NCBI GenBank assembly: GCA_028713655.1
Contig: JAQTNW010000041.1
Span: forward strand, 1-32,175
Source: Candidatus Methylacidiphilales bacterium
GTDB taxonomy: Bacteria; Verrucomicrobiota; Verrucomicrobiia; Methylacidiphilales; JAAUTS01
DNA length: 32,175 nucleotides
Direction of reading: 5' to 3'
Both the position numbers and the translations under genes were made by a program. The notes beneath the pieces are model-generated. The model had not been told where the DNA came from. It ran no database searches and saw only the letters and a program-made list of their open reading frames with translations. Positions 12,504-17,469 of this stretch are shown one piece after another (position 1 is the stretch's first letter; the number at the start of each line of letters is the position of its first letter).

Positions 12504-13478
12504 ATGCCCGCATCCCCAAAACATTTCCGCGCCGCCGTCCTGGATATCGGCAGCAATTCGATCAAGTTCATGCTGGGCCACCAGGAAGGCTCCCACCTGT
12601 CCGTTTTCCAGGAAAAGGCCTTCACCACCCGGCTCGGTCATAAGCTGGCGCTAACTGGAAAAATCGGCTCCAAACCCGCGCGGGACACGCTCGCTGTGCT
12701 GCGCGCCTGCAAAAAGGAGGCGGAAGCCTTCGGCGCGGAAAAAATCATCGCCATCGGAACGAGCGCGCTGCGTTCGGCCTCCAATCGGGATGAAGTCCTG
12801 CTGCCTTCCAAAAAAATCATAGGCGGTCCCGTCCGTGTCATCAGCGGAAAACTGGAAGGCGAGTTGATCTACGCGGGTACGACATCCTTCCATAAATGGC
12901 AGGAGAAAGAGGTTGTCGTGATTGATGTCGGAGGCGGCAGCGTCGAGTTCGTTTATGGCCGGAAGGGAAAAGTATTAAAAAATAAAAGCCTGCCCCTGGG
13001 CTGCGTCCGGGTCCGGGATTCCCTGCTTCCCCATCAACCCGCTTCGGCGACACAGCTCTATGAGGCGATCGAAATACTGGCAAAAAAAATGACGGCAGGG
13101 TTTCAATCCTTCCTCGGTTTGGACGCGTTCCTTCTCGGATCGGGCGGTACAATGATGACGCTGACCGCGCTGCACCCCGCAAGTTATGCTCTTCCCGATA
13201 TCCACCATTACGAGGGCATGGCGATCCGCCAATTGGAAATGCAGGAGCGCCTTGAGTCCCTCGCCGTTTCTCCGCTCGCCGAACTCCGTTCCAACCCGCG
13301 CATCCCCACCCTACGCGCGGATGTCATCACGGCGGGCTGTTGCATCTTTTACACCGCAATGGAAGTGCTGGGCGCCAAAACGATTCATTGCGCCACGCGC
13401 GGCCTGCGCTACGGTGTCTGGCAGAAAATGCTGGCTCCCAACCCCTTTAAGTCGGTCCATTATGAAAATGTCCCATGA
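12504..13478 (+). CDS. Exopolyphosphatase / guanosine pentaphosphate phosphatase family protein, catalytic core only
   Basis: A 324-residue Ppx/GppA phosphatase of the ASKHA fold, which removes terminal phosphates from polyphosphate or from pppGpp. The phosphate-binding loops are clear: DIGSNSIKFML at 14-24 and VIDVGGGSVEF at 139-149, with SGKLEGELIY between them; in the last, only the second Glu of the usual GxEE pair is kept. GSGGT sits near residue 213. The protein is the short form and lacks the C-terminal HD domain of long Ppx enzymes such as E. coli PPX. The next gene, overlapping by 17 bases, supplies an HD-domain protein, so the two may form one functional unit. First gene of a five-gene operon. 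Polyphosphate versus pppGpp preference cannot be decided from sequence. Confidence 0.88.
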   Translation: MPASPKHFRAAVLDIGSNSIKFMLGHQEGSHLSVFQEKAFTTRLGHKLALTGKIGSKPARDTLAVLRACKKEAEAFGAEKIIAIGTSALRSASNRDEVLLPSKKIIGGPVRVISGKLEGELIYAGTTSFHKWQEKEVVVIDVGGGSVEFVYGRKGKVLKNKSLPLGCVRVRDSLLPHQPASATQLYEAIEILAKKMTAGFQSFLGLDAFLLGSGGTMMTLTALHPASYALPDIHHYEGMAIRQLEMQERLESLAVSPLAELRSNPRIPTLRADVITAGCCIFYTAMEVLGAKTIHCATRGLRYGVWQKMLAPNPFKSVHYENVP

Positions 13479-14100
13479 GGACGCGGCCGTATTCAAGGAG
13501 GCCCTCGCTTTGATGCGCAAGCTTGAACCCGATCCGGAACACGTCCTTCAGGTGCGGCGCATCGGGATCGCATTGTGGCGCGGCAGCCACAGCCTGCATA
13601 AATTGGCGCCGAGATTCCTCGCCTTATTCGAAGCCTCGGCGCTTTTGCACGACATCGGCTGGTCGCATTCCCCCAAGGACCAAGCCCACCACAAACATTC
13701 CGCCGAGTTGATTCTCAAGCATCCTTGGAAATCCCTGGCCCCCGAGGAAATCCGCATTGTGGCCCAAACAGCGCGCTACCACCGGAAAGGCCTTCCCAGC
13801 CTGTCTCATGTACAATTCCGCGCTTTAAGCATCAAATCCCGCCATGTGGCGCAGGCAAATGCGGCCCTGCTCCGGATTGCCGACAGCCTGGATCGCTCCC
13901 ATCGCCAGGCGATTCAAAAGGCCCGCATCAGCAAAGCTGAAACCGGCTGGGTCGTCACGGTATTGACAACGGAGCCGCTCCGTGCTGAAACGTATGGCTT
14001 TGAGAAGAAGAAAGACCTGTTTGAACGACATTTTAAAACCTGCATCCGGCTCAATCCCTTGAAAACCGACTCACTGCCGGATTGCCCGGTCTTGTCATGA
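13462..14100 (+). CDS. HD-domain protein, probable detached C-terminal partner of the Ppx/GppA protein
   Basis: A 212-residue protein with an HD-type metal-binding fold: ALLHDIGWSHS (the His-Asp pair) near residue 70, then KHSAELILKHPW and AQTARYHRKGLP. The order, with a second histidine-rich helix before an R-Y-H-R-K-G-x-P loop, matches the HD segment of long exopolyphosphatases. The last 50 residues form a small mixed domain (TGWVVTVLTTEPL, then FERHFKTCIRL) like the end of those enzymes. I chose ATG 13462; ATG 13468 is two residues later. It overlaps ppx by 17 bases, and its TGA overlaps the next ATG (ATGA). It may supply a regulatory or dimerisation surface to Ppx, or be a nucleotide phosphohydrolase in its own right. 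Confidence 0.82.
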   Translation: MKMSHEDAAVFKEALALMRKLEPDPEHVLQVRRIGIALWRGSHSLHKLAPRFLALFEASALLHDIGWSHSPKDQAHHKHSAELILKHPWKSLAPEEIRIVAQTARYHRKGLPSLSHVQFRALSIKSRHVAQANAALLRIADSLDRSHRQAIQKARISKAETGWVVTVLTTEPLRAETYGFEKKKDLFERHFKTCIRLNPLKTDSLPDCPVLS

Positions 14101-15275
14101 ACTGGCGGCTTCGAGTACTCTCGCTGCTGATCCTCGGCGTTTTTGCCGCGTTCTCGGTTTATTACTACCGGTATTACATCGCGCCCAAGGCGCAGGGGAT
14201 CATCCTGTTCGTGGTGCCCGGCTTGAGCCTGTACAATCTCGGCCTCACGGAAATTTCCGACTCTACCCAGCCCTTGAACGCGACGTTGCATTCCAACGGC
14301 GTCGCGATCGTTGATAACAATACGCTGCAACCTTATACCGCCGATGCGGTGTCCATCATGTCCTTCGTCTCCACCGGTGAAAAAGGCCTCCCAAACCAGA
14401 TGGGACTCGACGCCAACGGGGTTCCCCAGGACAATCTCCTCTACAAGGCCCAGCGCGCAGGCCGCACCATTGGAATCGTCGGCACCGGCTCCGTCACCGC
14501 GCCTCCGCTTGCCGCTTTTTATGCCCACGTCACCAATGCAAACCGGACGGAGGAACTGGCAAAACAAGTGTTCGATTCCACGGCGATCAACGTGATCCTC
14601 GGCGGGGGCGGCGACGCCATCGCATCCGTCAAAAGCGATGGCGGGCGCGACCTGCTCAAGGAAGCGGACTTGCGGGGATACAAGATTGTCCAGAACCGCG
14701 CCGATCTGGAGGATGTCCCGGCCTGGCGCACGAGGAAATTGTTAGGTATTTTTGCATCCCAAAAACTCCCCTATTACGATCCCCTGGCCGATGAATCCGG
14801 ACAGAATCCTTATCCCAGCCTGCCGGACATGACCCGCCGCGCCATTCAATGCCTCGAATTCAACCTCAACGGTTATTTTTTGGTGGTTCATCAGGGCCTG
14901 GTGGCGGATGCCCTCCGTGAAAACAACATCCCCAGGGTCATCAGTGAAATCCGGCAGCTCGACCTCGCCTTGAAAGAGGCCCGGGCCTACGCCGGAAAAA
15001 AAACGCTCATTCTCCTTTACTGTCCCTACGAGGTGCAGGGGCTTCCGCGCGGCAGCGGCCAGATTTTGGTCACCACGGAATCTGAAAGCGGACGCCGCCG
15101 CGCGTCCGAACCAGCCGAGGAACGGCATCCCCTCGTTTTTCTGGGGCCCTTTTTGCCCGAATTCCGGTCCTCCCTCGGATTCGGCTGGCTATCGGTCTAT
15201 AAACAAACAGGGGCGGTCGTTGAGGGTTTTATCAGCCCGGGCGACCTCAGCCATTTTATCGAGCAGCAGTTGTGA
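14097..15275 (+). CDS. Membrane-anchored alkaline-phosphatase-fold protein lacking the catalytic nucleophile (probable pseudo-enzyme)
   Basis: A 392-residue protein with one N-terminal membrane helix (about 8-28) and an outside domain that follows PhoA closely: PPLAAFYAHVTN, INVILGGGGDA, LLKEADLRGYKIVQ, KLLGIFASQKLPYY and a GYFLVV strand. The active site has gone. The PhoA segment D-S-A-A-S-...-S-T-G aligns without gaps to D83-A84-V85-S86-...-S92-T93-G94, putting Ala where the nucleophilic Ser should be. The first metal Asp (GDGMG) is Pro41 here. The E-G-...-D-...-H ligands become VVHQGLVADALRENN, and the TADH ligands become LLYCPYE. Losses at all sites while the fold is kept suggest a binding or sensing role rather than decay. 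The start overlaps the HD gene (ATGA), so it is co-translated with Ppx-HD. Its anchor places the domain in the periplasm. Confidence 0.8.
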   Translation: MNWRLRVLSLLILGVFAAFSVYYYRYYIAPKAQGIILFVVPGLSLYNLGLTEISDSTQPLNATLHSNGVAIVDNNTLQPYTADAVSIMSFVSTGEKGLPNQMGLDANGVPQDNLLYKAQRAGRTIGIVGTGSVTAPPLAAFYAHVTNANRTEELAKQVFDSTAINVILGGGGDAIASVKSDGGRDLLKEADLRGYKIVQNRADLEDVPAWRTRKLLGIFASQKLPYYDPLADESGQNPYPSLPDMTRRAIQCLEFNLNGYFLVVHQGLVADALRENNIPRVISEIRQLDLALKEARAYAGKKTLILLYCPYEVQGLPRGSGQILVTTESESGRRRASEPAEERHPLVFLGPFLPEFRSSLGFGWLSVYKQTGAVVEGFISPGDLSHFIEQQL

Positions 15276-15290
15276 CGGACCGCCCCCACC

Positions 15291-16058
15291 ATGACTCTGA
15301 CCGAAATCAAACAAGCCCTGGCAGCAAACCATTTGCGCCCGTTGAAAAGCCTCGGGCAAAATTTTCTTTTTGACCAAAACATCTGCCGCCAAATTGTGGC
15401 CTGGTTGAATCCCGAACCCGGTTCGGCGGTCGTCGAAATCGGACCGGGCCTGGGAGCGCTGACGGAGTTGTTGCTCGACCTGGATATCGGCCTCACCGTG
15501 CTGGAAATCGACAAGGGATTGGCCGCTTATTTGCGCCAAAAATTCCATCGCTTCGACAATTTCAAGCTGGCCGAGGGCGACGCCGTTGAAACATTGCACA
15601 CAGTTCCCTCCGCCTCGTGTGTGATAGGAAATTTGCCCTATAATGTTTCAACCCCCTTGCTGGTTTCCATGCTGGAACTGGACCCTCTGCCCCGGCATTG
15701 CGTTTTCATGCTGCAAAAGGAACTCGCGCAACGCCTTGCGGCGGCACCCCACAGCAAGGAATACGGCGCCGTCTCCATTCTGATCCAGTCCTATTACTCA
15801 ATCGAGACCCTCAAGTCGCTGAAAAGCAATGTGTTTTTTCCCGCGCCGGAAATTGATTCTGTCGTCCTGCGCATGGATCTGAAACCCGGCACGCCCGGTT
15901 TCAGCCCGGAGGAGAGGCGGGCTTTTTACGCTCTGGTGCGGCGCGGTTTTTCCCAGCGCCGGAAAAAACTTCGCAACCTGATTGAACTGGATTCCGACAG
16001 GCGGGCCGAGGAGCTTTCGGTGTCTGAATGGCAGGAGCTTTACCGGAAACTGAAATGA
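15291..16058 (+). CDS. rsmA: 16S rRNA dimethyladenosine transferase (RsmA/KsgA)
   Basis: Dimethylates the two adjacent adenines in the 3'-terminal hairpin of 16S rRNA, late in small-subunit assembly. The 255-residue protein has the SAM-binding motif I VEIGPGLGALTELLL, the acidic motif II in LEIDKGLA, the catalytic NLPYNVSTPLL (NLPY, motif IV), and the family's LGQNFLFDQNI start. The C-terminal domain ends with the QRRKKLRNLI segment expected for KsgA. It starts 15 bases after the preceding gene and its TGA overlaps the Nudix start (ATGA), so it is in the same operon. Confidence 0.96.
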   Translation: MTLTEIKQALAANHLRPLKSLGQNFLFDQNICRQIVAWLNPEPGSAVVEIGPGLGALTELLLDLDIGLTVLEIDKGLAAYLRQKFHRFDNFKLAEGDAVETLHTVPSASCVIGNLPYNVSTPLLVSMLELDPLPRHCVFMLQKELAQRLAAAPHSKEYGAVSILIQSYYSIETLKSLKSNVFFPAPEIDSVVLRMDLKPGTPGFSPEERRAFYALVRRGFSQRRKKLRNLIELDSDRRAEELSVSEWQELYRKLK

Positions 16059-16582
16059 AAACGGAAGAGCTCTTTGACATCGTCGATGAAAATGATGAAG
16101 TCATCGGCTCCGCGCCGCGCTCGGAAGTCCATGCCAAGGGGCTGCGTCACCGGGCCGCCCACATCTGGGTCTTCAATTCCAAAGGCGAAGTGCTGATCCA
16201 GTTGCGTTCGCCTCAAAAGGACCGCCACCCCTCCACCTGGGATTCCTCGGCAGCCGGCCATGTGGACAGCGGCGAAAACTATGACACGGCGGCGGCGCGT
16301 GAAGTCATCGAGGAACTCGGCATTCGCGATGCGGGGCCTTTGCGGGAAATCGGCTATGTTCGCGCCTGCAACTCCACAGGACAGGAATTTGTCAAAGTCT
16401 ATCAAACCACGCACGAAGGCCCCTTTCGCCCCTGCCCTGTTGAGATCGACCGGGTTCGATGGATCTCACCCGGCGAACTTGAAAAATGGATGGAAGAAAA
16501 GCCCGGAGAATTTGCGCCAGCCTTGCCTTATCTGTGGAATTTGTTAAGGATAAAGGATTCCGAAACAACCCAATTGGACTAA
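16055..16582 (+). CDS. Nudix hydrolase
   Basis: A 175-residue Nudix pyrophosphohydrolase. The Nudix box is complete: GHVDSGENYDTAAAREVIEE then LGI fits Gx5Ex7REUxEExGU exactly. The N-terminus (ELFDIVDENDEVIGSAPRSE) and the HRAAHIWVFNSKGEVLIQLR segment are typical of the YfcD/isopentenyl-diphosphate isomerase-like branch. It lacks the Cys of the Idi active site at the CNH-type position, so isomerase activity is unlikely. ATG 16055 overlaps the rsmA TGA, arguing against an upstream start. Substrate unknown; last gene of the Ppx-HD-RsmA operon. Confidence 0.9.
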   Translation: MKTEELFDIVDENDEVIGSAPRSEVHAKGLRHRAAHIWVFNSKGEVLIQLRSPQKDRHPSTWDSSAAGHVDSGENYDTAAAREVIEELGIRDAGPLREIGYVRACNSTGQEFVKVYQTTHEGPFRPCPVEIDRVRWISPGELEKWMEEKPGEFAPALPYLWNLLRIKDSETTQLD

Positions 16583-16636: not shown

Positions 16637-16758
16637 TATTTCAATCATTCAGAATCTGTGCCAGCATGCGACATCCGCCAACGAAAAAACCCCTGCGCCG
16701 CGAATCCCGAAGGGGCCATGGCAAGAAGCCGGCTCACAGTTTTCGACGGACTTCCAAT

Positions 16759-17469
16759 ATGGAGAACAATACGGATAGAAAAAAGGTGATCCTGGTCGTC
16801 GATGACCAGGAAAATATCACTAAATTTCTTTGCCGGGCCATCCAGCAACGGTTCAAGACCGTTGAAACAGTCGGACTGTACGACGGTTACGATGCGCTGA
16901 ATTGGTTGGGGGACAACACGCCCGACATCGTCATCACAGATCTTCGCCTGCCCCGTTATGGGGGGCTGGAAATCATCATGAATACCATCAGCCGCGCGCC
17001 GCGTACGCCGATTTTTGTAATGTCCGCAGCCGCCTTGCTTGAAGAAATCCAACAGATGATGGGCGGACTGGACTGCATCCGGTTTTATGCCAAGCCATTT
17101 TTGGTGGAGAAAATGCTGGCGGACCTGGAAGACCTGTTGATCGGCGATCCCGACAGCGTGATTCAAGGCATCAGCCAAATCAGCCTGCTGCAGGTCATCA
17201 AGCTGGAAGACAAAACCTGCCGCCTCGATTTTGAGCAGGACGGTGTCTCCGGACGCATGTATTTTCTGCTTGGGGAATTAATGCGGGCCGAGGTGGGCGA
17301 TTTGCAGGGGCCCGAGGCATTTTTCCACATGATGGCGTTCAGGAAGCCGAAGATCAACGTGTACGACAACACCAAAACCCGCACCACGAATGTGCATGAA
17401 ACCATTGAAAACCTTTTGATCGAGCACTGCCGGAGGCTGGATCAGCCGGAAGATACCCCGGCGGCATGA
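16759..17469 (+). CDS. Response regulator: receiver domain plus DUF4388
   Basis: A 236-residue two-domain signalling protein. Residues 8-128 are a CheY-like receiver with the acidic pair Asp15-Asp16, phospho-acceptor Asp61 (ITDLRLP), Ser89 and Lys112 (YAKPF), so it should be phosphorylatable. Residues 137-200 are a DUF4388 (PATAN-like) domain, starting GISQISLLQVIKLEDK and containing GELMRAEVG and the FFHMMAF segment. DUF4388 domains occur in many gliding and surface-motility regulators, probably as protein-interaction modules; there is no DNA-binding domain. No histidine kinase is adjacent, so its partner is elsewhere. An in-frame ATG at 16666 would add 31 basic residues; I prefer 16759 because the receiver fold begins right after it, but a promoter TATAAT at 16631 makes the longer form possible. 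Confidence 0.85.
   Translation: MENNTDRKKVILVVDDQENITKFLCRAIQQRFKTVETVGLYDGYDALNWLGDNTPDIVITDLRLPRYGGLEIIMNTISRAPRTPIFVMSAAALLEEIQQMMGGLDCIRFYAKPFLVEKMLADLEDLLIGDPDSVIQGISQISLLQVIKLEDKTCRLDFEQDGVSGRMYFLLGELMRAEVGDLQGPEAFFHMMAFRKPKINVYDNTKTRTTNVHETIENLLIEHCRRLDQPEDTPAA

Follow-up and report, generated by a model that had tools for sequence, protein, structure and literature searches.

Here we show that a class-level family of pseudo-alkaline phosphatases (pAPs) in the Verrucomicrobia belongs to the alkaline phosphatase family, has lost the active site of these enzymes, arose once, was passed on vertically and is maintained under purifying selection. The member that led us to the clade lies in a stretch of 32,175 nucleotides (the window), from the order Methylacidiphilales. 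We consider it probable that this protein crosses the inner membrane once and that its PhoA-fold domain, most likely periplasmic, is catalytically dead and has been kept for binding or scaffolding. The features of the window referred to below are as follows.

12504..13478, + strand: Ppx/GppA-type phosphatase without C-terminal domains; linkage to pAP not conserved across the order
13462..14100, + strand: HD-domain protein (Ppx-GppA_III), with a 4-base overlap with the start of pAP; linkage not constant within the order
14097..15275, + strand: pAP, 392 aa; N-terminal membrane anchor (about residues 5–27), then a PhoA-fold domain without catalytic or metal-ligand residues
14097..14177, + strand: MNWR and hydrophobic anchor helix at the pAP N-terminus (helix 3–28 in the model)
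15054..15164, + strand: pAP residues 320–356, low confidence (pLDDT < 50); in PhoA, the region after the 369/370 ligands
15291..16058, + strand: ksgA/rsmA, 16S rRNA adenine dimethyltransferase (TIGR00755, 230 bits), 15 bp downstream of pAP; adjacency conserved only within the own order
16028..16582, + strand: NUDIX hydrolase, last of the same-strand gene run; present also in the f3 and G001 loci

Fold and membrane anchor of the window protein

The pAP reading frame is intact from its ATG at 14097 to the stop codon ending at 15275, as the initial annotation had it, and overlaps by four bases (ATGA) the HD gene, whose TGA ends at 14100. PF00245 is the sole Pfam match of the protein (105.3 bits, cut-off 24.4; profile positions 65–306), 56 PDB chains were matched by phmmer, the top ones all being alkaline phosphatases, and the AlphaFold2 model (alignment of 29 orthologues; pLDDT 84.9, pTM 0.84) gave E. 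coli PhoA (1ed8) as its top Foldseek match, with an E value of 3.6e-23 and a TM score of 0.72, the other top matches being PhoA entries too. The score against the PRK10518 equivalog of NCBIfam, 58.7 bits, is below the cut-off of 540. A single transmembrane helix is predicted, at the N-terminus (about residues 3–28), and the corresponding MKWR/MNWR-TM-FVxxR pattern recurs across the clade. Both the alkaline-phosphatase fold and the membrane anchoring suggested in the initial annotation are thereby borne out, and the pAP is, as judged from profile matches and the model, a member by descent of the alkaline phosphatase family with a PhoA fold and one membrane pass. It is homologous to E. coli PhoA, Vibrio AP and TAB5 AP (same fold, Foldseek TM about 0.7) and shares with them the GGG loop, the PSL..MT motif and the GYFLVV strand, but carries a membrane anchor where PhoA has a cleaved signal peptide.

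Considering the descent from an exported enzyme and the very short, positive N-terminus, the domain is probably periplasmic. Since the charges flanking the anchor are positive on both sides (mean +2.4 before it and +1.75 after it), the topology is only weakly indicated.

Loss of the PhoA active site

Pocket residues are numbered after E. coli PhoA (from NC_000913.3), with positions assigned by sequence alignment, in which pAP residues past about 320 are less surely placed. None of the 12 PhoA active-site residues is kept in the window protein: positions 51/102/153/155/166/322/327/328/331/369/370/412 are occupied by P/A/A/P/A/H/A/D/R/P/Y/S. The Ser102 nucleophile is replaced by Ala84 and Asp51 by Pro41, both as read by eye in the initial annotation, which had also rightly found the 322/327/331 and 369/370 ligands to be absent; positions 153, 155, 166, 328 and 412 are changed in addition. 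In particular, the Zn1/Zn2 ligands D51, D327, H331, D369, H370 and H412 have become P, A, R, P, Y and S, and the Mg-site residues D51, D153, T155 and E322, together with Arg166, have become P, A, P, H and A. Compared with PhoA, the protein is left without nucleophile, Zn1, Zn2 and Mg ligands and Arg166, and its phosphomonoesterase activity has presumably been lost.

The same holds, to varying degree, over the clade. Across 68 pAP members aligned with 22 active-type PhoAs, at most five of the 12 active-site residues are retained, as against 10–12 in the active-type paralogues, and no member has the full PhoA site. Of the five Zn ligands tested, none is kept in 48 members, one in 19 and two in a single member, as compared with five out of five in all 22 active-type proteins. 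Core structural motifs (ILGGG, PSL..MT..AI..L, GYFLVV and LD.A...A..YAG) are preserved while the ligand positions vary: A, S, E, T, D, Q or others stand at position 102, and D, E, P or N at position 51. The initial annotation had raised the conservation of Ala84 and Pro41 across the lineage; both prove to be lineage-specific, and inside the own order P, N or D is found at position 51 and mostly E or A at position 102.

These patterns bear on whether the pAPs could still be enzymes, with a rebuilt or single-metal (Mg-type) site whose substrate at the membrane might be a phosphoester linked to lipid or glycan. In 25/68 members the residues D/E/N51, D153, T/S155 and D/E322 make up a plausible Mg-site set, 22 of these 25, such as that of G295, being outside the own order, and Ser or Thr stands at position 102 in 20/68, so that some relatives might bind metal or keep residual chemistry; moreover, YejM, another envelope protein from the wider superfamily of hydrolases, is reported to have a Mg-binding site and to be active as a phosphatase (PMC13333357, PMC7576196). 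However, the Mg set is wholly replaced in the window member (P41, A, P, H), nearly all members lack the Zn ligands at 327/331/369/370/412, Arg166 is retained in at most 1/68, and the pocket positions are free to vary between lineages. We consequently regard an enzymic role as unlikely.

Single origin, distribution and selection

When 384 genomes of the class were searched with a profile, against which full-length members, anchor included, score at least 265 bits, the clade was recovered in 103. Among 98 near genomes 59 have relatives, a count that takes in active paralogues, and in a phylum-wide sample of 388 genomes matches at E <= 1e-70 were confined to 11, all within the class Verrucomicrobia. 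No pAP relatives were found in the viral contigs searched. Active PhoA paralogues score lower against the profile and leave the anchor region unmatched, except for those of G077 and G101, which reach about 295 bits with a match starting at column 31 and have a complete active site.

In the maximum-likelihood tree (midpoint-rooted) a branch with support 100/99 separates the 68 members from the 22 active-type PhoAs, and the inner branching largely tracks families. Taking the active group as ancestral, for which its complete site is the natural reading, we conclude that the site was lost a single time and that inheritance has since been vertical.

The possibility that the gene is a decaying pseudogene was weighed against the coding sequences themselves. 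All catalytic residues are lost in the window protein and the gene is missing in some relatives: 12 genomes of family f8 (genera g12 and g15) have lost it, and it was not found in 3/5 genomes of genus g3, of the window's own family, which indicates that pAP is dispensable. The frame is also split in G001 (L039:5327-7441), but since ksgA is split there too, an assembly or sequencing fault is the probable cause. Against decay, essentially all carriers have intact frames of 350–500 aa with the fold motifs kept, and Nei–Gojobori dN/dS over twelve close pairs is 0.04–0.18 in 11/12 (0.41 in G004/G006), as expected of a conserved pseudoenzyme rather than a decaying gene. These ratios refute the pseudogene reading for the clade, and for the window gene we hold it to be extremely improbable. 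They confirm a class-level pAP family under purifying selection and, together with the fold, the lost site and the single clade, support the earlier proposal that the protein is kept for a non-catalytic role.

We suggest the following course of events, the order of loss being read from present-day sequences. The ancestor would have been an ordinary exported alkaline phosphatase, which once, in the ancestor of several orders of the class, would have acquired a membrane anchor that is not cleaved, and have lost its Zn sites. It seems that the Zn sites went first, and that the nucleophile and Mg-site residues may then have been lost piecemeal in separate lineages, with the window member at the extreme of loss. 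Purifying selection would thereafter have acted on a membrane-bound domain for binding or scaffolding, whose retained function is presumably to bind either a partner protein or a ligand in the envelope.

Other PF00245 proteins in the same genomes

PhoA is a homodimer, and the window's own genome encodes, besides pAP, a complete PhoA on C6, both of which would suit a pAP acting as a regulatory subunit that heterodimerizes with active PhoA. Yet pAP is the only PF00245 protein in 33/42 carrier genomes of the order (several genomes being incomplete), so that it is no obligate partner of active PhoA; we therefore reject this pairing and give a heterodimer hardly any credence.

A second variant of PF00245 was seen in G037 (L072:6404-7723), G031 (L153) and G124 (L152), in which PhoA ligands are systematically replaced. 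Its pattern, DSSEGREDNNDSD, has H331 changed to N, H370 to S and H412 to D with the acidic residues kept, and it may possibly be an alkaline phosphatase with different metals.

Gene neighbourhood

Immediately upstream of pAP, positions 12504–14100 of the window hold a split Ppx, that is, a Ppx/GppA protein without C-terminal domains and a separate HD gene matching Ppx-GppA_III. On the basis of this arrangement the initial annotation had advanced a periplasmic phosphate or polyphosphate sensor, or a scaffold for the Ppx-HD pair, and overlapping same-strand Ppx/HD/pAP genes do occur in the window, f3, f5, G001 and G017. The linkage is not conserved across the lineage, however. Ppx and HD accompany pAP in about a third of the order's loci and adjoin it only in parts of families f1, f3, f5 and f7; elsewhere they are far away or absent. 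They form a pair of their own apart from pAP in G014, G019, G036 and others, as in the f9 genomes (in G014 the pair is on C25 and pAP on C20), are unlinked to it in f2, and lie about 630 kb from it in the single contig of G012. In G004, of the same family as G012, Ppx is on a contig other than that of pAP and HD was not found; HD is also missing in G006. Each occurs without the other, as in G002 and G005 of the window's own family, where SerRS-Ppx is present without HD and without pAP. Furthermore, merely some 4–8 residues precede the anchor, and the pair and the pAP domain are probably on opposite sides of the membrane. Synteny and distribution lead us to reject a Ppx-HD partnership, and we think the sensor or scaffold proposed for it very unlikely.

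The downstream neighbour is more constant within the order. Besides the window, ksgA lies directly 3' of pAP on the same strand in 28/30 loci, spanning six families, the two exceptions being G013 (opposite strand) and G009 (none nearby). This linkage, along with the charges on both flanks of the anchor, could be taken to favour a cytoplasm-facing domain that cooperates with KsgA/RsmA in membrane-associated ribosome maturation. But ksgA, like Ppx and HD, was absent near pAP in all 44 loci examined outside the order (some of which end near a contig edge), though the protein is conserved there; active-type relatives such as that of G077 start with a signal-peptide-like N-terminus; and a ksgA neighbour can reflect mere operon inertia. 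A role with KsgA thus appears quite unlikely, and we retain the periplasmic binding or scaffold domain as the preferred reading.

The pAP neighbours outside the order share no theme, being heterogeneous housekeeping genes (iPGM, HemB/ALAD, rpoN, AcrB, TPR, Ham1, citrate synthase). A gene for cofactor-independent phosphoglycerate mutase, likewise an alkaline phosphatase superfamily member, lies near pAP on the opposite strand in up to 13 of these loci (families f17, f44, f41 and f31, e.g. L105:7606-9582; one representative was identified by Pfam). A scan for promoters and terminators gave sites no commoner than chance. Downstream of the gene run, window positions 16666–17469 encode a response regulator receiver domain fused to DUF4388, and positions 1–127 of the window recur without a difference at G000:C16:68827-68953, which is probably an overlap of contig ends in the assembly.

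Relation to known systems and significance

YejM (PbgA/LapC) of E. coli, an envelope protein from the hydrolase superfamily of EptA and LtaS, offers a works-like comparison only: it is an inner-membrane-anchored periplasmic phosphatase-like fold that acts as a regulator more than as a classical enzyme. It differs from pAP in having five transmembrane helices instead of one, and pAP, matching PF00245 alone, falls outside the sulfatase/EptA-type branch and is no member of that family. Given that a Mg site with phosphatase activity has been reported for YejM (PMC13333357), the likeness is a loose one. It is conceivable, though we are doubtful, that the pAPs are a class-wide, PhoA-derived envelope receptor or scaffold, independently comparable to YejM, in which a membrane-anchored sensor or adaptor presents an emptied pocket to a different envelope ligand in each order. 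The pseudophosphatases STYX and MK-STYX likewise keep a phosphatase fold under selection without catalysis and act by binding, but their fold (protein tyrosine phosphatase) is unrelated, and they are eukaryotic and cytosolic. Within the open-access literature we found no paper on inactive PhoA-family members, and pseudoenzymes of this family appear to be undescribed so far.

With the whole clade delimited, the pAPs offer a clear example of an active site lost step by step while purifying selection acted on the protein, for which the active sister enzymes of the same class serve as controls. Finally, annotation by PF00245 would label these proteins alkaline phosphatases, and such phosphatase calls in databases are probably wrong. 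Given that the dead pAP is the sole 'alkaline phosphatase' in at least 33 genomes of the order, inferences on the use of organic phosphate drawn from that annotation would be wrong for these organisms.
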